NCBI RefSeq assembly: GCF_010119975.1 | Contig: NZ_CP048222.1 | Coordinates: forward strand, 8,098,501-8,162,500 | Source of the DNA: Rhodocytophaga rosea | Lineage (GTDB): Bacteria > Bacteroidota > Bacteroidia > Cytophagales > 172606-1 | Direction of reading: 5' to 3' | Length of the DNA: 64,000 bases | In this document: positions 20,969-54,988 of the stretch, piece by piece | How the letters are laid out: every line of letters starts with the position of its first letter | How positions within the stretch are numbered: the first letter of the stretch is position 1 | Position numbers and translations under genes: made by a program | The notes under the pieces: model-generated | What the model was told of the DNA's origin: nothing | The model's input: only the letters and a program-made list of their open reading frames with translations | Database searches by the model: none

Positions 20969-22070
20969 AGTAATTAAACACAATTAAGTATAATATTTTC
21001 ATCTACTTCAAGTTTTTTAAAATCAAGTTTAAAGTAAGTACCCAATCCTGAAAAGATGGTATAAAGTGCCTCCTTAAGCGCTTCTACAGACAGATAGTCT
21101 TCGGCTTTGAGCCAATGATATTTCACCTGCTTCCAAAATCGTTCGATCCTGTTAAGATGAGGACTATACTTAGGCAGCAAAAAGATGTATAATCCTTTCT
21201 GTTCCCATTCTTCTTTTTTGACTTCCCATAGGCCACATGTATGCCAGGAGGCGTTGTCTAAGACTATGACAGTAAACTTGGAAATAGATGTTGAGAAGGC
21301 CTCTACACATTCAATGATAAAGTCAGCGTTTAGACTCCCACTTTTCTGATAAGTAAGCAACTCATTATTTGTACTTAACAAGCCAAATACATTTATCCTT
21401 GTACTTCTTTGGGATAAAATAGGGGCGTGTTCGCCTTTTTTGATCCATCCATAAGGTACACAAGGGGTAAGGCAAAACCCTGATTCGTCTCCAAAATATA
21501 AATCTATACTGCCTGTCTGTGCCAAATAAAGCAAAGCATGTAATCGCTTGACTTTCTGCTCATATGCTTCTTTGTTTTGCAATGGCTTTATCCATTTACG
21601 GAAACGTTTCCATCGGTAGTCAATTTTTTTAAAAACCGCTTCAAGGTCATCTCACTCATAGCCGTGCCTAATTTAGCTTCTATCTCTCGCTTAGCTAATT
21701 TAAGTTGTTGTTTTTCTTTCTCTATGCTATTTTCCACTACTTCAACATGGGTAGCATTACTGGTAGTAAGGATGGGTTTTCTGCCTTTCCCTTTTTGGTT
21801 CTTTAACCCTACCACACCTGTTTTCTCAAAGCGATCAAACCACTTATAAATACTTAACTGACTTACTTGAAAAATGCTTGCTAACTTCTGTACTTGATAG
21901 CCTTGATTGGATAACAGTATACATTGGCAACGGTTACGTTCCTGATAACTTTTACTATCTTTATGAATCTTCTCTAAGTCTTGTTTTTGCTTGTCTGTAA
22001 TCTTCTTGATATAACGCATAAGCAAAGATACAATTTGCCAAAATCTTATACTTAATTGTGTACTCTTACT
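20969..22070 (-). mobile_element. IS630-family insertion sequence 1
   Basis: A 1,102-bp element. Its ends are imperfect inverted repeats (left AGTAATTAAACACAATTAAG..., right end read in complement AGTAAGAGTACACAATTAAG..., 26 of 31 bases alike over the first 31). TA dinucleotides flank both ends (20967-20968 and 22071-22072), as expected for IS630 insertion into TA. It encodes one transposase split by a frameshift. Its right-hand TA is also the left-hand TA of the next element. Confidence 0.85.
20974..22019 (-). CDS. IS630 transposase read through a -1 frameshift
   Basis: The first part (22019-21588) starts MRYIKKITDKQKQDL and carries an HTH/homeodomain-like N-terminus (VQKLASIFQVSQLSIYKWFDRFEK). 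The second part (to 20974) carries the DDE catalytic core (LYFGDESGF, VIVLDNASWH, SPHLNRIERFW). The frames join at A_AAA_AAA (T7 at 21624-21630 on the plus strand). After a -1 slip the protein reads LKK-IDYRWKRFRKWIKPLQNK, about 348 residues, the normal IS630 length. A true slippery site is likely; a homopolymer under-call of the kind seen elsewhere in this window would look the same. Confidence 0.85.
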
Positions 22071-22072
22071 TA

Positions 22073-23250
22073 GTAGTCTATAAACATTAAATAGTCGGGT
22101 ATAGTTTTTTGAGTTTAACCCTGGCATCTTGATTGGTGAACTGCCAATTAGCTTTTACTGCTTTGTTATTTCTGCTCTCCTGCCAGGCGCTTAGCTGTTT
22201 TATTAACTCATCCTCTGTGGCAATGTGCCTGTCAAGGCAATCTCTTTGTAACACTGATAGCTCTATTTCTGCCATATTGAGCCAACTGCCATGAGCCGGG
22301 GTAAAGATAAACTCTATCCTGTCTAAATACGCTTTAGCTTTCTCAGGTTGATAAAGTTCATAAAAAGCACTTGGTTTGTGAGCCGACAAGTTATCCTCTA
22401 CTAAAGTGATTTTCTCGCATGCTTTGTAAGTAGTATCCAACAACCGGCTTAGAATCTTTACCCAGGTGAAACGGTTGTGGTTTTGCTCCACAAAACAATA
22501 TCGTTTACCGGCTAATGGCTCAAAGACCATATAGATATCACGCACTCCATGTCTTGTATAGATACTGTCCTGATACTGTTTTCCATCTTTGCCTATGAAG
22601 TGTTTGCTTTCAATAAGTTGTTTGGGTGATTCATCCAAAGTGACCAGCAGCTGCTTTTCATCATATGGCCTTTCATAGACTGAAATCACTTTTTCCATTT
22701 GATAAACAAACCCTGCATTTTGTTTAGGGGGGATCACCCACATGGGCCTCAGCCAAGGCTTAAGCTCATTTTTTTTAACAGGCTTGCCACACTCGTATGG
22801 GAAATGGAGTCAATCACCTTGAGTTCTACTAATCTGTCTGCCAGCAGTTGCAGTTTCCATTTTGCCTGTCCTTGAGGCGGCTCACTACAGACTAATGCCA
22901 GCAGATGCGCTTCTACCTTCCCATCTATCTTTTTGTCGCTTCTTAATTTTCTTGTTTTCTTATCAAACATGCCCATGCCCTGCTCACAAAAACACTTACG
23001 GATACGCTCCACACTTCTGGTAGATAATTTATAAGTTTCTGCCAACTCAGTCTCACTTTGCCTGCCTGTTGTTTCATCGCTGGCTAACAGCACATAGGCT
23101 TTTTGAATATCTTTGGCCTTTCGGCTGCCTTTATTTATCCAACTACTTAAGATCCTTCTTTCTTCAGCACTGAGGGTAATTCGATAAATGACCATGGCTT
23201 TTTTGATCAAATTACCTAATTTACCTGACATCTTATATTTTATGAACTAC
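22073..23250 (-). mobile_element. IS630-family insertion sequence 2
   Basis: A 1,178-bp element directly abutting the first. Left end GTAGTCTATAAACATT and right end (complement) GTAGTTCATAAAATAT form imperfect inverted repeats, with TA at 22071-22072 and 23251-23252. Its transposase differs from that of element 1, so the pair is not a tandem duplication. Its right end lies 23 bases from the mobile-element attachment core at 23274. Confidence 0.82.
22087..23231 (-). CDS. IS630 transposase (second type), read through a -1 frameshift
   Basis: The N-terminal part (23231-22749; a later ATG at 23195 is equally possible) has an HTH domain (ETELAETYKLSTRSVERIRKCF). The second part has the DDE core: LLVTLDESPKQLIES, KITLVEDNLSAHKPS and HGSWLNMAEIELSVL. 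The frames meet at an A8 run (plus-strand T8, 22769-22776). A -1 slip on A_AAA_AAA gives LLKK-NELKPWLRPMWVIPP and about 381 residues. It belongs to the IS630 branch with a long N-terminus. Confidence 0.83.
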
Positions 23251-37303: not shown

Positions 37304-37831
37304 GCTGAAATGAAATTAGTCTGTGTATAAAAGGTACACTTAACAGAATACCCGAGGGTTAAATTTATACACAAACAAGGAAGTAGGAGGGAAGGTTCTA
37401 TATTTTTTCGTAACAGAGGTATTTCAAGAAAGTATTCAAACATATTGGTGTCAAAATGCTTTCTTAAAAGTGTTCATTATTTTGATATTTTCATAATAAT
37501 ATATGGCCGTAATATGCTTAATAACACATATTTATTAATATTAATTTTAAGTATTAATTTAAGTGTTATTTGTTTACTACAGGCATTATATGGGAAGAAT
37601 AATTATCATATTGAGGATAATAGCTTTTATATCCTAGTAGCCTTGCGAATGGTGAAATAAAGTAAGTTGCTGTTATGGTCTCATAAATATTTCGATCACC
37701 TATGATCTCCCATATACTCGTTGCGTACGTCTGAAGGTGAGAATCTAAAGGAAAGTAAATATTTTTTTCCATGTAAGCATGAATAGCAGTGCTTACTAAA
37801 GATAGAATATTTTGCGCAGTTGTAAAATTGA
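37304..37831. other. Intergenic stretch with a possible short ORF
   Basis: About 530 bases between the mnmE start and the last permease gene. A minus-strand frame of 68 codons (37772-37566, MEKNIYFPLDSHLQTYATSI) has protein-like composition and may be a remnant or a real small gene; no family is recognised. The mnmE promoter must also lie here. Confidence 0.3.
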
Positions 37832-38714
37832 TTAAACTTTCGCCAGCTGCGGTTTCTGGCGTAGTTGCTTGATAATAATTCCCTGTTGAGGAGAAAATAA
37901 AACGGATAGCAAAAATAACAAACCGGAAATAGCAGCCATCGCTCCGGCAATTGACCCATCCAGCCAAACTGCCAAAAGATAGCCTAATGCAGAAGTAACG
38001 ATCCCGATTAAAGAAGAGAGAATCAGCATTTGCTTAAAATTGTGTGTAAGCAGGTAAGCAGTGGCAGGTGGCGCTACTAAAAAAGCAACTACTAATATTG
38101 CGCCTACAGATTCAAAGGCTGCAACCGTTGTCAGAGAAACGGCGCCCATGAGTAGGTAATGCCATAATAAGGTAGAGATACCAATAGAAGCCGCAAACCC
38201 AGGATCGAAGGTAGTTAAGAATAGGGTTTATATCCTGTTACAATAAATAATATTATGATAAGTAGAGTAATGCCCATTAGCCATACTGTTTTTGGGCCTA
38301 TATTCAGTCCATCAGCAGTAATAATTAAATCGAGGGGATATAAGCGATTTCTCCATACAGCACACAATCCTGATCCAGGTCTACTTGTCCGGCAAATACA
38401 GTAATTAAAATCACGCCAAGGGCAAACAGCCAGGTAAATGTTACTCCAATAGAAGCATCTGTTTGTAAGCGGGCTTTGGTATGGAAAAACTCAATCAGGA
38501 AGGTACACAATACGCCTAGAATACCAGCTCCCAGTAACATAGGCACCGAATCCCGGCTGCCGGTGAAAAGGAACGCTAAAACAATGCCCGGTAGTACAGC
38601 ATGGGAAATGGCATCTCCAACCATTGCCATTTTTCGCAATATGAGGTAACAGCCCAGCAGGCTGCAACAAACAGCAACCAGAGAGCCAGCTAATATTATC
38701 CAGAATGCATTCAT
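37832..38714 (-). CDS. mntD: Metal ABC transporter permease (MntD/TroD type), two frameshifts
   Basis: Integral membrane permease of the ABC-3 family, about 294 residues after correction, starting MNAFWIILAGSLVAVCC. The N-terminal part has LRKMAMVGDAISHAVLPGIVLAF; the C-terminal part has TTVAAFESVGAILVVAFLVAPPATAYLL. The frames join if the G4 run at 38334-38337 and the G3 run at 38224-38226 each gain one base, giving IPLDLIITADGLNIGPK and later GYKPLFLTTFDPGFAAS. These are the same kind of homopolymer defect seen elsewhere, so I treat the gene as intact. It is last in the mnt-like operon and pairs with the permease at 38794. Confidence 0.8.
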
Positions 38715-38793
38715 ATACGTTAAGTCTTTAGTAGGTTGTCGGGAGTTTCTGGTATGTCTACATTCATTTCTGAGAATTTGTAAAGACCAGAAA

Positions 38794-40080
38794 CTATTTA
38801 GGAATTTGTGAATTGTGTGGATCAAGATCCGGGTATTGCAACTGCTCCATTATTTTTTCTTCCAGCTCAGGGGTAATCACATGTTCTATATTTTCTGCAT
38901 CCTCATGTACATGGTCTGGTGCCAGGTGGAGGTATTTTGTAAGGTATAATTCCCATAAGCGGTGGAGGCGGGTGATCCGTTTGCCGCGTTCTTTTCCTTC
39001 TTTGGTAAGCTTCCAGGTATGCCCACTTTTTTCCAGGTATCCTTCACTGGCTAATCTTTTTAAGCCGGATAATAAAATTGGTTTTTCAATTCTTCTTTTT
39101 TCCAATAATTGAGCTATTGTATGAGGAATATAAAATTGTTTGTCTTTTTCGTTGAGGTGAAAGAAAGTCTTCAGAATATTTTCGTCTACGATCTGCCGCC
39201 TGTTTTTTTGTTGGCGTTGCCATCTGGCAAAAATTCCTTTTCCTGGCGCCAGTATAAACGAACCCACTGCAATTACAGAAATCACCATTACCATCCAGGG
39301 ACCAGTAGGCATGGCAGGAGAGAGGTACGATATGTAGGCTCCGGTAAGGGCAGAAAATGCTCCGAATGCAGCGGACAGCAAAAGCATTACCAGCAATTTA
39401 TCTGTCCAGAATCTGGCGGCAGCGGCAGGCGTGATCAGAATTGCCGCCATTAATACGACACCTACTGCCTGTATTCCGGTAACAACAGATAATACGGTAA
39501 GGCTGGTAAGCAACCATTCTAATCTTCTGACTGGCAAACCAATGGATCTGGCAAAGTTTTCATCAAAACATAATAGTTTGAATTCTTTATAAAACAGCCA
39601 TACTACCAGAAGCAATAATAAGCTTACACTTGAAAATACAATAACATCTTCCTGAACCATCGAAGCAGCCTTTCCAAATAGAAATTTATCCAGGCCAGAT
39701 TGTGAGGCATTTCCTTGTTGCTGGATGGCAGTGAGCAATAATATACCAATTCCGAAGAATACAGATAACACCAGTCCTATAGCAGTATCTTCTTTTATTT
39801 TGGTTCTGGAAGTGATCAGGTCAATGCAGATCAGGGATAGCCAGCCAGTAGCAAATGCGCCGATTAGTAGCAGGAGAGGATTTTTCTGTTCACTGATTAT
39901 GAAAGCGAGACATACACCAGGTAATACAGAATGAGCAATAGCATCTCCGATCAAGGCTCGTTTTCTTAGCAATGCAAAACATCCCACGATGGCTGCACTT
40001 GCAGATAGCAGCATAGAGCCAAAGGTCACAAACCGTATGTTCGGATCTGAAAAGGAGAAGAATTCAATGAAGTTGTTCAT
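38794..40080 (-). CDS. mntC: Metal ABC permease fused to a DtxR/MntR-like domain
   Basis: A 428-residue protein from the ATG at 40080 (MNNFIEFFSFSDPNIRFVTF). Residues about 1-290 are an ABC-3 permease with eight or nine helices (LLRKRALIGDAIAHSVLPGVCLAFI, GIQAVGVVLMAAILITPAAAARFW). After a basic linker (WQRQQKNRRQ), residues about 300-428 form a winged helix plus a DtxR-like dimer domain (LLSGLKRLASEGYLEKSGHTWKLTKEGKE, then LAPDHVHEDAENIEHVITPELEEKI). The cytoplasmic domain could sense metal and gate transport. Its spacing of 7 bases from the ATPase gene shows co-translation. Confidence 0.85.
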   Translation of the reverse strand: MNNFIEFFSFSDPNIRFVTFGSMLLSASAAIVGCFALLRKRALIGDAIAHSVLPGVCLAFIISEQKNPLLLLIGAFATGWLSLICIDLITSRTKIKEDTAIGLVLSVFFGIGILLLTAIQQQGNASQSGLDKFLFGKAASMVQEDVIVFSSVSLLLLLVVWLFYKEFKLLCFDENFARSIGLPVRRLEWLLTSLTVLSVVTGIQAVGVVLMAAILITPAAAARFWTDKLLVMLLLSAAFGAFSALTGAYISYLSPAMPTGPWMVMVISVIAVGSFILAPGKGIFARWQRQQKNRRQIVDENILKTFFHLNEKDKQFYIPHTIAQLLEKRRIEKPILLSGLKRLASEGYLEKSGHTWKLTKEGKERGKRITRLHRLWELYLTKYLHLAPDHVHEDAENIEHVITPELEEKIMEQLQYPDLDPHNSQIPK

Positions 40081-40087
40081 TGCTTTT

Positions 40088-40888
40088 TTATTTAGCGGGT
40101 AGTTGTTCTCTGGCAGGAAACTGGTTTTTCTGTAATAAATCGCCAACCCGTGAGAGTACGGTGAGTTTTCCACCATATGTTTCCTGTAATAATTCTGGTG
40201 TAAATACCTGCTCTGTTGGTCCGGAAGCCACCAGCCGGACGTTGAGTAAAATGATCCAGTTGAAGTATTCCTGCGCCGATTGTAAATCGTGGTGTACAAC
40301 TACAACTGTTTTCCCCTGGTTACGCATTTCCTGTAAAATCTGTACGATGGCACTTTCGGTAGCGATATCTACGCCGGCAAAAGGCTCATCCAGGCAATAC
40401 AGGTCTGCATCCTGAGCCAGGGCTCTTGCTAAAAATACCCGTTGCTGTTGTCCGCCGGATAACTGTGAAATCTGCCGGTTGGCAAAAGATTCCATCCCTA
40501 CTTTTTTTAGACATTCCCAGGCAGCTTCTTTATCCGATTTTCTGATGGTTTGAAATAAACCTAATTTACCATACCTGCCCATCAGTACTACATCTAAGAC
40601 GGAAGCTGGAAAGTCCCAGTCAACTGACTCACGCTGGGGAACATAGCTTATCTGCTGGCGTACTTTGGCAATCGGCTGATTAAAGATCTTAACAAATCCG
40701 CTTCCGGTTGGGACCAGATCCATGATGGCTTTGAGTAGGGTAGATTTACCTGCACCGTTCGGCCCGATGATACCTACCAGTGATCCTGATGGAATAGTCA
40801 GGTCTACATTCCATAATACTGGTTTCTTATCATAGCTTACCGTTAGATCGTGTACTTCTATTACCGGTTTTTCTACCTGAATGATCAT
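40088..40888 (-). CDS. mntB: Metal ABC transporter ATP-binding protein
   Basis: A 266-residue ATPase that powers uptake of divalent metal through the two permeases. It has Walker A GPNGAGKSTLLKAI (about 40-53), Q-loop YVPQRESVDWDFP, signature LSGGQQQRVFLARAL, Walker B DLYCLDEPFAGVD and switch histidine VVVHHDL. The VDWDFP segment after the Q-loop is typical of Mn/Zn/Fe (TroB/MntB) transporters. It is the third gene of the regulator-binding-protein-ATPase-permease-permease operon. The transported metal is inferred. Confidence 0.92.
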   Translation of the reverse strand: MIIQVEKPVIEVHDLTVSYDKKPVLWNVDLTIPSGSLVGIIGPNGAGKSTLLKAIMDLVPTGSGFVKIFNQPIAKVRQQISYVPQRESVDWDFPASVLDVVLMGRYGKLGLFQTIRKSDKEAAWECLKKVGMESFANRQISQLSGGQQQRVFLARALAQDADLYCLDEPFAGVDIATESAIVQILQEMRNQGKTVVVVHHDLQSAQEYFNWIILLNVRLVASGPTEQVFTPELLQETYGGKLTVLSRVGDLLQKNQFPAREQLPAK

Positions 40889-40912
40889 ATAAATTATAGT
40901 TTCTTTGATTAT

Positions 40913-41842
40913 TTATTTTAAAGCCGCTACTATGGTTTCTATGTTTGCTTTCACCATACCAATATATGTGCCTTCGGGAGTGCCAGGGTTACCCATGGCA
41001 TCTGAGTAGAGGTTTCCGCCTATTTTTACCTGGTGTCCTCTGGCTTTACAACCTTCTACTACTGCTTCAATGGATTTTTGTGGAACAGATGATTCTACAA
41101 AAACAGCTTTTATTTTTCTGTTTACTATGAGTTGTACCAGCTCGGATACATCTTTTAGTCCGAATTCAGATAGGGTTGAAATACCTTGCAGTCCTTTCAC
41201 TTCAATTTCATAAGCTTTGCCAAAATACCCGAATGCATCGTGGGCGGTAATTAGCACTCGTTGTGAAGGAGGAATTTCGCTGATTCTTCGTTTGGCATAT
41301 TGGTGCAATGAGTCCAGTTCAATCAGGTATTTCATGGTATTTTCTGCATAATAGGCGGCATTACCTGAATCCTTTTGTTGCAGTATCTTGCTTGCAAAAG
41401 CTATACACTGTTGCCATTTCTGCACATCAAACCAGATGTGGGGATCATAACTTTCTGTGCTGCCCGGGATTTTAGTGAGTGATGAATGATCTATATCCTG
41501 GCTTACGGGTAATACAGTTTTGGCTTTGGCCAACTTTTTAAAGATTTCCTGTAGCTTTCCTTCCAGATGCAAGCCATTGTAAAAGATGATATCTGACTCA
41601 GTCAATTTATTTACATCTCCATAGGTAGCTTTGTATAAATGCGGATCAACACCTGGCCCCATTAAAGCTGATACGTTGGCTGAGTCTTTTACAATGTTTT
41701 TTACACCGTCTGCAATCATACCTGTTGTCGTAACAATATTTAGTTTTCCAGAGCTTTCTTTTTTCTTTACATCGCAGCTTGCTAAAAAGGCTAAAGTGAT
41801 TACTAAAAATATTGTTACTAAAGTTGTTTGTGTGTTGGTCAT
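40913..41842 (-). CDS. mntA: Metal ABC transporter substrate-binding lipoprotein (TroA/MntA type)
   Basis: A 309-residue lipoprotein anchored in the periplasm; the ATG at 41842 gives the signal LVTIFLVITLAFLASC with its lipobox. Cluster A-I metal site residues appear in order: VDPHLYKATYGDV, YDPHIWFDVQKW, then AHDAFGYFGKAYEIEVKGLQG and, at the end, GGNLYSDAMG with an aspartate ligand. This H-H-E/H-D pattern fits manganese, zinc or iron. The start lies one base after the regulator stop (TAGGATG), so the two are coupled. Confidence 0.9.
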   Translation of the reverse strand: MTNTQTTLVTIFLVITLAFLASCDVKKKESSGKLNIVTTTGMIADGVKNIVKDSANVSALMGPGVDPHLYKATYGDVNKLTESDIIFYNGLHLEGKLQEIFKKLAKAKTVLPVSQDIDHSSLTKIPGSTESYDPHIWFDVQKWQQCIAFASKILQQKDSGNAAYYAENTMKYLIELDSLHQYAKRRISEIPPSQRVLITAHDAFGYFGKAYEIEVKGLQGISTLSEFGLKDVSELVQLIVNRKIKAVFVESSVPQKSIEAVVEGCKARGHQVKIGGNLYSDAMGNPGTPEGTYIGMVKANIETIVAALK

Positions 41843-41843
41843 C

Positions 41844-42515
41844 CTAATCCAGCGTGTATATGTTTTGTGCAATATCCTTTGAAATAATGATAAGCCGGTT
41901 TTTATTCACCTTTATTTCCAGAGATTGATCAAATTCAATTTTGTCCATAATTTCAATATGTGCGCCTATATTTACTCCTATTTTATCCAGATAGCGTAAA
42001 AACAGGGGAGAAGTTTCCTTTACACCTACCACATCACCACTGTCGCCTATTTTCATATCAATCAGATATACTTGTTTTTTATTAGTTAATTCACCTTTAT
42101 CATTAGGTATGGGATCTCCATGTGGGTCGTATTGGGGAAACTCCAGGAATTTATCTAATCTGTTAATTAATTCATCAGATTGAATATGTTCCAGCTGTTC
42201 TGCGATATCATGTACCTGATCCCAGCTGAATTGTAGTTTGTCGACCAGAAAAACCTCCCATAATCTGTGTTTGCGTATTACTAATAATGCTTTTGCCTCG
42301 CCTTCAGGTGTAAGGGTGACGCCCTGATATTTTACGTAGTTAATAAGTCCTTTAGCAGCTAGTTTTTTAAGCATATCGCTTACTGATGCAGGTTTTGTTT
42401 GAGTAAGATCTGCTATTTCATTGGTTGTAACTTCCTGGTCTATATTGGTTGTATTTGCTTTAGAAGCTCTATAGATAAGTTTTATATAGTTTTCCTCTGT
42501 GAAACTTAGTGGCAT
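41844..42515 (-). CDS. mntR: DtxR-family metal-dependent transcriptional regulator
   Basis: A 223-residue metalloregulator. The N-terminal winged helix is TNEIADLTQTKPASVSDMLKKLAAKGLINYVKYQGVTL. The metal-binding dimer domain (LVDKLQFSWDQVHDIAEQLEHIQSDELINRLDKFL) has the E-x2-H pattern, and there is a C-terminal FeoA/SH3-like domain (ETSPLFLRYLDKIGVNIGAHIEIM). It should repress the transporter operon it heads when metal is plentiful. A promoter with an overlapping imperfect palindrome lies directly upstream. MntR rather than IdeR function is inferred from the linked transporter. Confidence 0.9.
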   Translation of the reverse strand: MPLSFTEENYIKLIYRASKANTTNIDQEVTTNEIADLTQTKPASVSDMLKKLAAKGLINYVKYQGVTLTPEGEAKALLVIRKHRLWEVFLVDKLQFSWDQVHDIAEQLEHIQSDELINRLDKFLEFPQYDPHGDPIPNDKGELTNKKQVYLIDMKIGDSGDVVGVKETSPLFLRYLDKIGVNIGAHIEIMDKIEFDQSLEIKVNKNRLIIISKDIAQNIYTLD

Positions 42516-43844: not shown

Positions 43845-44659
43845 ATGGAAATAAAAGAAATCATTGAGCAAGCCTGGAACAACCGGGAATATTTGAAAGA
43901 AAGAAATACTGAAGTAGCCATTAAAACGCTCATCGAAGAATTAGATGCTGGTATCAGAAGAGTAGCCGAGCCTCTTGAGAACGGAGAATGGCAAGTTAAC
44001 GATTGGATAAAAAAAGCAATTATTCTCTATTTTCCAATCCAGCAGATGAAAGTAATTGAGCTGAGCCCATTTGAATACCACGATAAAATGGCATTAAAAC
44101 AAGGCTATAAATTAAAAGATGTACGGGTGGTGCCACCGGCTACAGCCAGATATGGAGCCTTTCTGAATAAAGGAGTAATATTAATGCCATCGTATGTAAA
44201 TATAGGTGCCTATGTAGATAGTAATACCATGGTGGATACCTGGGCGACGGTTGGGAGCTGTGCACAAGTAGGTAAAAATGTTCACATCAGTGGGGAGTAG
44301 GTATAGGAGGGGTGCTCGAACCAGTACAGGCCTCCCCGGTGATTATTGAAGATGGGGCATTTCTGGGTTCCAGATGTATTATCGTAGAAGGAGTTAGAGT
44401 AGGGAAAGAAGCTGTATTGGGTGCCAACGTAACGCTTACCCAAAGCACTAAAATTATAGATGTAACCGGAGATAGTCCAGTAATGCATCAGGGGTTTGTG
44501 CCTCCAAGGAGCGTTGTAATTCCGGGAAGTTATACCAAAAAATTTCCTGCCGGAGAGTACCAGGTGCCCTGTGCGCTGATTATTGGCAAAAGAAAAGAAA
44601 GCACAGATTTAAAAACTTCTTTAAATGATGCCCTGAGAGAAAATAGTGTAGCAGTATAA
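43845..44659 (+). CDS. dapD: Tetrahydrodipicolinate N-succinyltransferase, one frameshift
   Basis: Lysine/meso-diaminopimelate pathway enzyme that succinylates tetrahydrodipicolinate; trimeric left-handed beta-helix protein, about 271 residues after correction. The first frame carries the N-terminal helical domain and the hexapeptide start (VPPATARYGAFLNKGVILMPSYVNIGAYVDSNTMVDTWATVGSCAQ). The second carries LEPVQASPVIIEDGAFLGSRCIIVEGVRVGKEAVLGANVTLT. The frames meet at the G4 run 44292-44295, which should be G5 (HISGGVGIGGVLEP). Because the gene is normally essential, a base-call error is the best explanation. Confidence 0.93.
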
Positions 44660-49454: not shown

Positions 49455-50860
49455 CTATGGAATTACATAGAAAGGTATGTTTGCCGTGGCTACATGATGA
49501 TGGCCATCGAGTACATATACAAACATCCGGTAGGGACCTTCTACGGGAGGGGCTTTAAACTGTATCTGCGCCTGATTAATGGAGCTCATATATAACCCTT
49601 TAATAATTTCAGGTTTTGTTTCCCCTTCACCGCCTTCATTTAATTCATATCCTGTTAACTCTGGTAATATTTCCCATCTATATTGAAGGGAATCCTCGGC
49701 ATCAAAGGCTTTGATTGAAGCTGTATGTATGGATGTAGCATCCAGTACAACATTATCCTGGGGCATTTTACCATTGATCTGCAAGGGTTCAACAACAGGG
49801 CTGCTGTTTACTGGTGGTTTTCCTGTCCACAGGTAATGCAGGGCGTCAACCATTGATAATTCCTCCCCGGTGTCTATAAACATACTAAACCAGGTATGAG
49901 TCCTTTCCTGTTTTACATCCCACATAAATACATAGGAACCCAGGCAAAATGCTGTATCTTTTCCTATAGAAGCTTCATACCGCTCCTTATAAATCTGAGC
50001 TTTCCGGGTGCTGGTTTCTTCCAGAGATACATCCCAGGCAGTACGGGGGCTTCCCAGTATCCGGTAGGTCCCCATTCTGTTACCACATAGGGACCAGTCC
50101 AGCCATAGGATTGAATGGATTTAGAAAGTCTGGGCAGCGCTCCAAAAATATTAATAGAGAGAATATCAATTTCAGGACATACATAGCTTATTAGCTGGAT
50201 TAATTTTGATGGTCCAGCCAGCATGGTAGAAGTGGGGTGATTGGGATCTACCTCATGAATCATTGCTGCTACTTCATTTACAGCCTGCCAGAGTTTAAGG
50301 GTGGAATAAATATGTTTAAAATCGGTGATGTAAAATTTAGAGGACATATAGTTTAATTCGTTGCCAACGCCCCACATTAATAAAGCGGGATGATCCTTAT
50401 ACGTTTTTACTATTTCTGTTAGCTCCTGAAGTTGTTTTTCTACCGCCCCGGCATCAGAATAATCAAAGCCTTGCCTGGGATGGGCGAGTTCTAAACCCAG
50501 GGTAACCGTTAGTCCATATTTGTGTGCTTCATCCAGCACTTGTTTGGCGTCATTTGTATTCCATACACGTATGGAATTTCCACCATTTGCCTGTAATCTG
50601 TCGAAGTGGTGGTGCCCCCCGGCGCCTTTAATAAAATAAGGTTTCCCATGCCTGAATAACTGATATCTATTATCAAAATACCGGACCTCAACTGTTTTTG
50701 TTGATCCCTCAGTACCAGCATATTTCCTCTGGTTTGTACTACAGGCGGCTAAAAGCACAAGTGTAAGATATGTCAGCAGATTACAATATAGTACAAACAT
50801 GGTGTTCCTATTTTTAGACGTTGTAAGTGCCTTAATCATAGGTGATTTAATAGTGATCAT
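49455..50860 (-). CDS. GH2-like glycoside hydrolase lipoprotein, one frameshift
   Basis: Probable lipoprotein of about 468 residues with the lipobox VLLAAC; the start could be 50860, 50839 or 50800. It has a TIM-barrel like that of GH2 enzymes: GNSIRVWNTNDAKQVLDEAHKYGLTV, acid/base glutamate in LMWGVGNELNYM, nucleophile glutamate in VVTEWGPTGYW, and a C-terminal beta domain ending GHHHVATANIPFYVIP. The frames meet at the G5 run 50045-50049 (should be G6), giving GYWEAPRTAWDVS. It is divergent from the synthase fusion, and its catalytic and C-terminal parts resemble the end of that protein. It probably trims the same polymer. Confidence 0.82.
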
Positions 50861-51033
50861 TATCTGAAAATTTATACCGCTTTATGTTAATAACAATATA
50901 CCAAATTCAGCTGGGCCAAATCAACATCAGCGTATTGAAACAGAAAGTAGCTGTATGATTTTTTATTCTTGAATAACCTTTTTAAGCCATTCTACCCTTT
51001 AATTATAACATAGAATTTCTACCACACTCCCAG

Positions 51034-54000
51034 ATGTTAAAGATTGCAGCATATTCTAAAAATAGAGAAACAATCATCCGGGCACATCGACCTAAAAAAG
51101 GAGAGATGACCACCATGCGATTATTAATCGCTTGTGGCCTTTTTTTTATGTGCTTATTCCTCTGGTGGTTTGTAACGTATGTAGAAGTTGGGCATCCGGT
51201 ATTGTACTGGTTACTTACAGCTGGGCTTGCCTTTAAGTTACTGCGGATGTTGCATGAATGGTATCATTATGTAGCCATCAGCATACCAAAGAAACCAGTA
51301 ACACATAAACAATGGAGTGTAGATATCCTGACAACATTTTGCGCTGGCGAGCCCTATGACATGATGATAAATACGCTGGAAGCCTGTCAGAAGATAACAT
51401 ATCCTCACACCACCTATTTATGCGACGAATCAGACGATGCCCTGCTTAAACAGGTGTGTGCAGATCTGGGAGTAATCCATATAACCAGAAAAAATAAAAT
51501 TGATGCCAAAGCCGGAAATATTAATAATGCACTCAAACTGGCAACCGGCGAAATTTGTGTGGTATTGGACCCTGATCATACGCCTGTTCCTGAATTTTTA
51601 GACCGGGTTTTACCCTATTTTGAAGATCCTCAAATTGGATATGTGCAGGTAGTACAAGCCTATTATAACCAGCTGGAAAATAACCTGGTGGCCAAAGGAG
51701 CGGCGCAACAAACATATAGTTTCTACGGCCCAATGATGATGTGCATGAATGAATACGGAACCGCTCAGTCTATTGGTGCGAACTGTACTTTCAGAAGGGC
51801 TGCGCTGGATTCGATCGGGGGGCATGCAGCCGGATTATCTGAAGATATGCATACAGCCATGCGAATTCATGCCAAAGGCTGGAAATCGGTGTATGTACCG
51901 GAAATCCTGACCAGGGATTAGTACCGGCAACTATGTCGGCGTATTATAAGCAGCAATTAAAATGGTCAAGAGGTACTTTTGAACTGCTCTTTACAACCTA
52001 TTTTGAGTTATTCCGCCATTTTACCTGGCGTCAAAAAATCCACTATTTTACGCTTCCGCTTTATTATTTATTTGGCCTGTTTGGGCTGATTGACATACTC
52101 ATTCCAATAATTGCCCTGCTTACTTCTCAAATGCCATGGGAAGTAAATTTTGTTGCATTCAGCCTCTACTTTACACCCTTATTTGCTTTCTCATTGCTGA
52201 TTCGGCAGTATTCTCAGAAATGGTTTCTGGAAAAACATGAAAGGGGTATCCATATGCTGGGAGGGTTGCTCCGGAGCGGCACCTGGTGGATTTACCTGAT
52301 GGGCTTGTTTTATACAATATTCCGGGTCAAAGTCCCTTACATTCCTACGCCCAAAGATGATAAACCTGTAAACAGCTGGCTATTAAGTACGCCTAATATT
52401 ATTGCTTGCCTGGTGAGTATGGCAGCAATAGTGTACGGCTTATCCGTCGACTGGAGCCCTTATAGCTTCCTGATGGCAAGTTTTGCTGGTATCAATGCCT
52501 TAATTCTAGGTTTTATCGCTTTGTTAGGGCAGCATAAACTATTGATCAATATTTATACTACACTTTCAAAGAGTGACCATTTCGATACCTATATTTCCTC
52601 TCTAAGAAGTCATCTTTGGAAAACGAGTCACTTTATATTTAATATTGTTAGAAATGGAGCTGCTGTCTATGGACTATTAATTGTGATTTTATTCGGCAGT
52701 TATTTTTTCCTGCATCAAAAACCAACAATAGATTTTACCAGAACAGAACCTCCTGTATTTAAAGAAACAGGGGGATTCTACTCTGGAATTTATATGCCGC
52801 AGATCGACAGTGCGCTCAATCTGCAGCCGCTGCAACAAGTAGAAACAAATACAGCACATTCTTTTGGCATTGTATCTACCTATATCGCATGGGGCCGTAC
52901 AGCATTACACATTTCCCGGATGCATTATACCAGCAGATCTATCAGAAAGGGCAGTACCTATGATTACCTGGGAACCTTTTACAAATAGCTTCTCCTATAA
53001 TGCGAAATATCCAGGGTTGCAACAAAATAAAGACTTCTGTAAAGCTGTTATCAATGGAGCTTTAGATGAATATATTGAGGCTTTTGCCTTAAAAATCAAA
53101 GCACTTGAAAAACCAGTATTTATCCGGTTTGCCCATGAACCAGATAATCCGGTATATCCCTGGTCAGCCACCGGCGGAAATACTGCAGATGACTATAAAG
53201 CTTCCTGGCAACATGTAGTAAAGGTGTTTGTAAACCTGGGTATCACCAATGTAACCTGGGTATGGAATCCCTGGAATCCTTCTACTATAGATGAATATTA
53301 TCCAGGCAAACAATATGTGGACTGGATCGGGCTGACAGCATTAAATTATGGAAAAGCTTCATATGACGGGCAATGGCGAAGTTTTAAACAGATTTATTCT
53401 CCCATTCGAAAGAAAATACGAAGGCTTTCCAAACCAGTGATGCTGGCCGAATTTGGAACTACTGCCTATGGGGGAGACCAGGCAGCCTGGCTTACAGAGG
53501 CTACCCAGTTTATTACTGAATCAATCCCGGAAATAAAGTCTCTGGTATTTTTCTATAGCAACCGGGATAGATACTGGATCAATTCCTGGCGGCCCGATTC
53601 TACCACCCGGTTTATTGACTGGACATTCGGACAATCAAAACCTGTGTTTGATGCAGCTAAAAATGCACTAACTGTGCTTCCAAAGCCGTCCTATATTTCT
53701 TCTGTACAATCTCCATTACTAACAACAGCCAGCCATACAAATAGCATTTCAGGCAAAGCCGGTAACTATTCACTCAGAGTAGATGGAAAGCCATTTTATA
53801 TACAAGGCGTAGCGTATAATCCAGCCCATGACTGGAGAGACGGCGATTATCCGCTCAGCAAAAAACAATTAATTGCTGATTTTTCAGCCATTAAAGCGAT
53901 GGGCGCTAATACCATCCGTAGATATCATCCCGGTGTATATGACCGGAATATTTTGAATACGGCCAGTGAGCATGATCTGAAAGTATTGTACGGTTTCTGG

Positions 54001-54988
54001 TTTGATCCTGAAGTAGATTATTATAAAGATTCCCTGCAAGTTCAACAATACATCCAGCGGATTGTAAAACTGGTAGAACAACACAAAGACCATCCGGCAA
54101 TACTGGGCTGGGGATAGGCAATGAAGCATCTGGCTTGCTCAAACATTATTATGCACAGCCATATCTTGGGCAAGTGCGCAAAGCCTATATGCAAATGATC
54201 GAGCAGATCGCCCAGCGTATCCATCAAATTGATCCAAAACACCCGGTATTAACTGCCCTGGAACACAGCTGGCAGCTTCCTCAGGAAATAGTTGCTTTCC
54301 GGGAACATGTTCCTTCAGTAGATATTATTGGTGTAAATTCTTATTACCGGCAACAGATAAGCCAGCTGGATACTTTATTTAAACAATTTGATCCAACCCG
54401 GCCTTACCTGGTATCTGAATTCGGGCCGAAAGGTTACTGGAATCCTGATTATTCTACATTTAAAAACGATACGTTATTGATGGAAGATTCAGATCATAAG
54501 AAGGCAATCTGGTACAGCACGCAGTGGGACAGATACGTGATTTCTAAAAAAGGCAATAATATTGGGGCATAGCTTTTTGCTGGCGGGATCGAATGGAAGG
54601 AACCGCTACCTGGTATGGGCTCACAGATACTGAAGGCAGACGTAAACCAGCTTATTATGCCCTGAGCACCCTGTGGACAAATCGCAAACAAAAATCTCCC
54701 TTACATGATGTACATATTAAAGGTCCTTCAGAAGAACTGGAACCTGGCAAAACCTATGAATTCAAAGCCATTACAGAAAATAACATCAGCAAAACTGCCC
54801 GTTACCAATGGTACTTATGCGAAAATGAATATCTGGACCGCACAGGAAAAGTAGTACAGCTGGCAGGCGGAATGCGGGCAAAAGTAACTTTTCCCAAAGA
54901 ACCTTCTAAATACAGGCTGTATCTGTATATCCATGATGGCAAAGGGAATGTAGTGACAGCTTCAGAGCCAGTTCCAGTTTCAAATTGA
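51034..54988 (+). CDS. GT2 synthase fused to GH26-like and GH2-like domains, five frameshifts
   Basis: After correcting five single-base homopolymer gaps (G runs at 51914, 52891, 52949, 54110 and 54564) one frame runs the full length, about 1,319 residues. Residues about 20-75 hold membrane helices. Residues about 95-335 are a cellulose-synthase-like GT2 domain (DPDHTPVPEFLDRV, LSEDMHTAM, QQLKWSRG). Further membrane helices continue to about 560. At about 582-882 is a GH26-like domain (PVFIRFAHEPDN, VMLAEFGTTAYGG). At about 912-1216 is a GH2-like barrel (GWGIGNEASG, YLVSEFGPKGYW), then a beta domain. The protein would make, export and trim a beta-linked glucan or mannan. Confidence 0.8.

Follow-up and report, generated by a model that had tools for sequence, protein, structure and literature searches.

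We report that a gene of Rhodocytophaga rosea encodes, in one chain, a processive family 2 glycosyltransferase (GT2), a GH26 domain and a GH158 domain, and that it lies beside a second, separate GH158 gene. It is probable that this single inner-membrane enzyme both makes and edits a beta-glucan, with a product that contains beta-1,3 bonds and would most likely be a mixed-linkage beta-1,3/1,4-glucan. The domain architecture, folds, catalytic residues, gene pairing and recurrence among relatives were computed; the sugar and its linkage we infer solely from the glycoside hydrolase families.

A single synthase gene broken by assembly error

The window analysed is a 64,000-nucleotide stretch within a single 8.98-Mb contig (the whole genome is ~9 Mb). 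In its list of open reading frames (ORFs) the synthase appears as five pieces, which are tiled in order by the intact Rhodocytophaga aerolata protein used as a tblastn query:

51034-51921, plus strand, piece 1 (R. aerolata residues 3-272)
51933-52988, plus strand, piece 2 (residues 276-599)
52864-54117, plus strand, piece 3 (residues 599-1000)
54135-54572, plus strand, piece 4 (residues 1001-1166)
54593-54988, plus strand, piece 5 (residues 1152-1291)

Consecutive pieces are separated by one-base frame steps, and the breaks lie near 51918, 52893, 52957, 54112 and 54566. All five are one base short beside a run of G or C, and three fall inside G/C runs of at least four, which account for 0.8% of the locus bases. 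The separate GH158 gene on the minus strand has one break of the same kind, near 50045 beside a G run, and dapD (43845-44659, plus strand), which is single copy in the genome, is cut, where one base is lacking next to a G run, into two halves that correspond to the beginning and the end of the dapD model. As dapD serves the lysine and peptidoglycan precursor pathway, its true loss is unlikely. Since both genes are broken alike, the breaks in the synthase reflect assembly error rather than a dead gene; the synthase gene is one long frame, interrupted only where bases are missing from the sequence, and the assembly seems prone to one-base shortages at G/C runs. Taken at face value, the assembly's five stops or frame steps would point to a true pseudogene or to several separate genes, but we regard this as highly improbable given the uniform character of the breaks, the like damage to dapD, the retention of all catalytic residues in the window and the intact single frame of the relatives.

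The first-pass annotation had treated the stops as sequence errors and had proposed one frame of about 1,300 residues joining a GT2 to two glycoside hydrolases, and both proposals are borne out here, the latter also by matches in the PDB. The span it gave, 51034-54988, takes in all the synthase pieces and misses the partner GH158 gene. With the frame restored, the locus is divided as follows:

49455..50860, minus strand, gene of the separate GH158 lipoprotein, in divergent orientation to the synthase; its two ORFs match R. aerolata GH158
50861..51033, no strand, intergenic stretch of 173 bp between the divergent synthase and GH158 genes, an order repeated in many relatives
51034..51930, plus strand, N-terminal membrane segment and GT2 catalytic domain (Pfam Glyco_tranf_2_3, E 5.4e-20)
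51931..52750, plus strand, end of GT2, gating loop PYIPTPK and membrane helices, the presumed channel (hydropathy, QQLKW, BcsA-fold model)
52751..53690, plus strand, GH26 domain of the lichenase (CtLic26A) type (Pfam GH26, E 3e-12; CtLic26A, E 8e-29)
53740..54988, plus strand, GH158 domain, its C-terminal part Ig-like (in the R. aerolata counterpart, a GH158 match at E 6.5e-25 and a fold Z of 39.2)

Two other features of the window were recorded. An Mn/Zn ABC transporter operon (37566-42515, minus strand) consists of overlapping ORF pieces with one permease split, and its ORF 38794-40299 also bears an MntR/DtxR-like C-terminal part. An IS630-type transposase (20974-22743, minus strand) is likewise in overlapping pieces.

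A BcsA-like GT2 with membrane helices

The R. aerolata protein was modelled twice with AlphaFold2 on the basis of 35 relatives, and both models were confident (mean pLDDT 88.0 and 89.5; pTM 0.85 and 0.89). The GT2 domain and channel of the model superpose on E. coli BcsA with Z 36.9 and an rmsd of 2.5 over 468 aligned residues, and more poorly on barley CslF6 (Z 22.9); the PDB sequence match is to BcsA (E 2e-37). In the window the DxD motif is DPD (51568-51576), the ED motif lies within SEDMHT and the conserved QQLKW is found at 51951-51965. Across 55 relatives the GT2 aspartates are conserved save for one substitution at the first D, and the Q..W motif is kept in all, with K at the usual R position in 55/55. 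Hydropathy gives two helices ahead of the GT2 domain and about five behind it, with five segments in the piece 51931..52750, and together with the model would place the GH domains outside the membrane. The domain is thus a processive, BcsA-like GT2 by its D,D,D and Q..W residues, membrane helices and fold, as had been suggested from QQLKW and the helices.

The R. aerolata relative nevertheless falls below the NCBIfam equivalog cut-offs for BcsA (TIGR03030, 186/699 bits; PRK11498, 152/992 bits). A Pfam scan of the relatives gave no PilZ match, no BcsB was found in the window's own genome, and that genome holds one GT2 of the synthase type. We drew no conclusion on linkage from the GT2 motifs, as the TED position varies between T, S, A and C; we know of no sequence rule that gives linkage from GT2.

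GH26 and GH158 domains point to a beta-glucan

The middle domain, previously described as GH26-like, is a GH26 by its Pfam match, which is above the cut-off, and by both catalytic glutamates (codons 53137-53139, acid/base, and 53449-53451, nucleophile), and it can be refined to the lichenase type. Both glutamates align to those of CtLic26A, the Clostridium thermocellum lichenase (Endoglucanase H), which supplies all the top GH26 matches in the PDB (E 8e-29 for the window, E 1e-25 for R. aerolata); the next GH26 is a mannanase, at E 3.8e-8. The modelled R. aerolata domain superposes on CtLic26A with Z 31.2 over 269 residues. A lichenase requires 1,4 bonds adjacent to 1,3 bonds.

The third domain had been called GH2-like, an assignment that did not survive comparison of sequence and fold. 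The R. aerolata domain matches GH158, an endo-beta-1,3-glucanase family, in the PDB, and its model gives Z 39.2 over 374 residues, the GH158 length, with GH158(Pro) 9p26 and Z 37.3 with BuGH158, against ~27 for GH2 enzymes; the Pfam matches, to GH2_C or GH72, are weak and at the level of the clan. It has the TIM barrel, Ig-like domain, N-E pair and nucleophile E of GH158. In the window the N, E and E are all kept, with the Asn-Glu codons at 54120-54125 and the nucleophile Glu at 54417-54419. The triad of the R. aerolata domain aligns to that of BuGH158 (PMC7157763). One PDB entry of GH158(Pro) was soaked with a mixed-linkage oligosaccharide, which marks an interest in that substrate rather than an activity. 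At the level of sequence, chance is excluded for all three domains by their PDB E values (2e-37 for BcsA, 1e-25 to 8e-29 for lichenase and 6.5e-25 for GH158).

The BcsA fold alone fits cellulose, and the GH26 family includes mannanases. It could hence be argued that the product is a cellulose-like beta-1,4-glucan or a mannan and that the GH domains merely clear misdirected chains, the more so as the nearest GT2 folds and sequences are those of cellulose synthases. We consider this improbable: the GT2 lies far under the cellulose synthase cut-off, BcsB is missing from the genome and PilZ from the relatives scanned, and GH158 misfits a beta-1,4 polymer, yet is always kept. Of the two polymers raised by the first-pass annotation, beta-glucan is favoured and mannan disfavoured, because the third domain is a GH158, a glucan-specific family, and the GH26 is of the lichenase type.

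The partner GH158 gene and its surroundings

The separate GH158 is the only gene that recurs beside the synthase across lineages, and it is present at nearly all the relatives' loci fetched. Its two ORFs are 46% and 42% identical to the R. aerolata GH158, which itself matches GH158 in the PDB at E 1.3e-71; it has a lipobox (LAAC) and an intact triad. In the window and many relatives the two genes are divergent with a gap of about 70-400 bp, and the stretch 50861..51033 is possibly, from its position, a control region shared by both. In Flavobacteriia the separate GH158 and the start of the synthase share ~11 bp, an overlap suggestive of co-translation of the two. A search of the 9-Mb genome gave no GH158 match beyond the fused and separate copies, and this speaks against GH158 serving digestion in this organism. 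Genes of the Poly_export/SLBB (polysaccharide-export) and Wzc types adjoin the synthase in seven to eight loci, R. aerolata included; no outer-membrane exporter recurs beside it in the relatives' loci.

Relatives with the same domain order

A search for the same order of domains, as the first-pass annotation had advised, found GT2-GH26-GH158 in one intact frame in more than 50 Bacteroidota genomes (for example Rhodocytophaga, Cesiribacter, Algoriphagus, Aquiflexum, Pontibacter and Christiangramia), spread over Cytophagales, other Bacteroidia and Flavobacteriia. Such frames occur at 52 of the 80 named loci of one scan, with 1,002 to 1,356 residues, the shortest running off their contigs. About a dozen of 395 sampled genomes of the class had a match of the synthase type in an open frame of more than 1,200 residues; the architecture is recurrent, not universal, in the class. 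In a quick GT2 tree, with an unannotated Sinorhizobium meliloti pSymB GT2 as outgroup (L120 8636-10645, a candidate BgsA), the window synthase groups nearer to Pontibacter and MAG copies than to R. aerolata of its own genus, a hint of horizontal transfer or of a swap of paralogues.

In Cesiribacter andamanensis (L038:4340-8250) the protein is split into a GT2 ORF and a GH26-GH158 ORF in different frames, through either sequence error or a real split. Verrucomicrobia MAGs (L091, L092, L093 and L111) carry a fusion of GH18-like, polysaccharide deacetylase and GT2 parts (1,092-1,099 residues), closely followed by a gene for a separate GH26, another pairing of a synthase with GH26.

Loss and retention of catalytic residues

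Among 55 aligned three-domain proteins (54 distinct, as L023 duplicates the L056 contig; in two truncated rows the nucleophile column is missing), the GH26 catalytic pair is lost in 17 and the fused GH158 triad in 14, and both are lost in 0/55. The fused triad is kept at loci with no adjacent separate GH158, and the separate GH158 has N-E-E intact in every full-length copy. Five two-domain relatives (L027-L030 and L034; GT2 with a degenerate GH26, 821-867 aa) lack the third domain and have lost the GH26 pair, and each lies beside an intact separate GH158. Mapped on the quick GT2 tree, the losses take no fewer than seven steps for GH26 and no fewer than five for the fused GH158; they cluster by lineage, and the pattern in which at least one site is kept is spread over few independent lineages. 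Read most simply, these alignments suggest that the step which the system cannot lose would be cleavage at beta-1,3 bonds. About a third of the relatives have lost GH26 catalysis, which rules out a 1,3/1,4 step as a general feature.

The same retention may be read in favour of a pure beta-1,3-glucan, linear or cyclic and periplasmic, with GH158 and GH26 acting as transglycosylases. GH158 is the catalytic part retained at every locus, and BuGH158 is strictly beta-1,3-specific and poor on mixed-linkage glucan (PMC7157763), which would fit such a polymer and counts against the mixed-linkage reading; there is also a precedent in the Pseudomonas GT2-GH17 protein, the proposed maker of a cyclic beta-1,3-glucan with its GH17 part as transglycosylase (PMC10237404). 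We nonetheless judge a pure beta-1,3 product unlikely, given that the GH26 is by far closest to lichenase and that no transferase activity of GH158 is known in the literature searched.

Discussion

Our preferred model is that of a mixed-linkage glucan made and edited by one enzyme. GT2 synthases of the BcsA fold elongate their chain in the cytoplasm and extrude it. GH26 and GH158 belong to the retaining clan GH-A, and retaining enzymes can hydrolyse or transfer. In the proposed mechanism the cytoplasmic GT2 would add glucose from UDP-glucose and push the chain through its own membrane channel. Outside the membrane the chain would meet the GH26 lichenase-type and GH158 endo-beta-1,3-glucanase-type domains, with the second GH158 lipoprotein nearby. 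These enzymes may cut, or cut and re-join, the chain at or beside beta-1,3 bonds, and such editing might set its length, release it, branch it or close it.

GH5_46 is a family with GT2 fusions, for which the literature search yielded nothing useful. We found no description of a GT2 fused to GH26 or GH158 in the literature searched, which took in few subscription journals, in agreement with the earlier remark that this order of domains was not recognised as that of a described enzyme.

The closest parallel is the Pseudomonas BcsA-like Orphan / NdvB GT2-GH17 protein, in which one membrane protein combines a processive BcsA-like GT2 with a retaining domain of clan GH-A whose presumed role, as proposed here, is to edit the chain outside (PMC10237404). 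It differs in having GH17 in place of GH26 and GH158, in its N-terminal GH domain and in the lack of a partner GH158 gene; no relative scanned here gave a GH17 match. More loosely, the cyclic beta-1,2-glucan synthase (GT2-GH189-GH94) also has three parts, with a GT2 that elongates and two GH-family domains that close and trim, whereas its GH families and folds are different, it is about twice as long, its product is beta-1,2-linked and its synthesis is protein-primed (PMC11842490). BcsA shares the GT2 fold, channel, D,D,D and Q..W motif, and differs from the synthase described here, which has no PilZ, no BcsB in the genome, a QxxKW motif, fused GH domains and a score below the NCBIfam cut-off. 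The synthase would work like the Pseudomonas protein, yet is a member neither of that group, nor of the cyclic beta-1,2-glucan synthases, nor of BcsA by curated cut-off.

Set beside it by description, RiGT2 of Romboutsia ilealis, a mixed-linkage glucan synthase, is also a bacterial processive GT2 with a possibly shared product class, and differs in its PilZ domain, the lack of reported GH domains and its Gram-positive host (PMC10374906). CtLic26A and BuGH158 agree with the GH26 and GH158 domains in fold and catalytic residues, but are degradative enzymes free of any synthase. In Actinoplanes wps-1, a GT2 and a GH26 occur as separate proteins in a Wzx/Wzy cluster (PMC13390465).

More tentatively, and with rather less confidence than we place in the activity of the single enzyme, we suggest a previously undescribed family, widespread in Bacteroidota, of mixed-linkage beta-glucan synthases that edit their own product and have a partner GH158. 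Their hydrolase sites may be able to replace one another, so that different lineages drop different sites, yet none drops them all.

As members of known families, the two fused hydrolases serve as an inbuilt label for the product, which makes the polymer predictable and testable. The relatives form a natural set of variants, with GH26 active, GH158 active or both, in which the role of a synthase-bound glucanase can be asked. If our proposal is true, Bacteroidota would join the small number of bacteria in which synthesis of beta-1,3 or mixed-linkage glucan is known.
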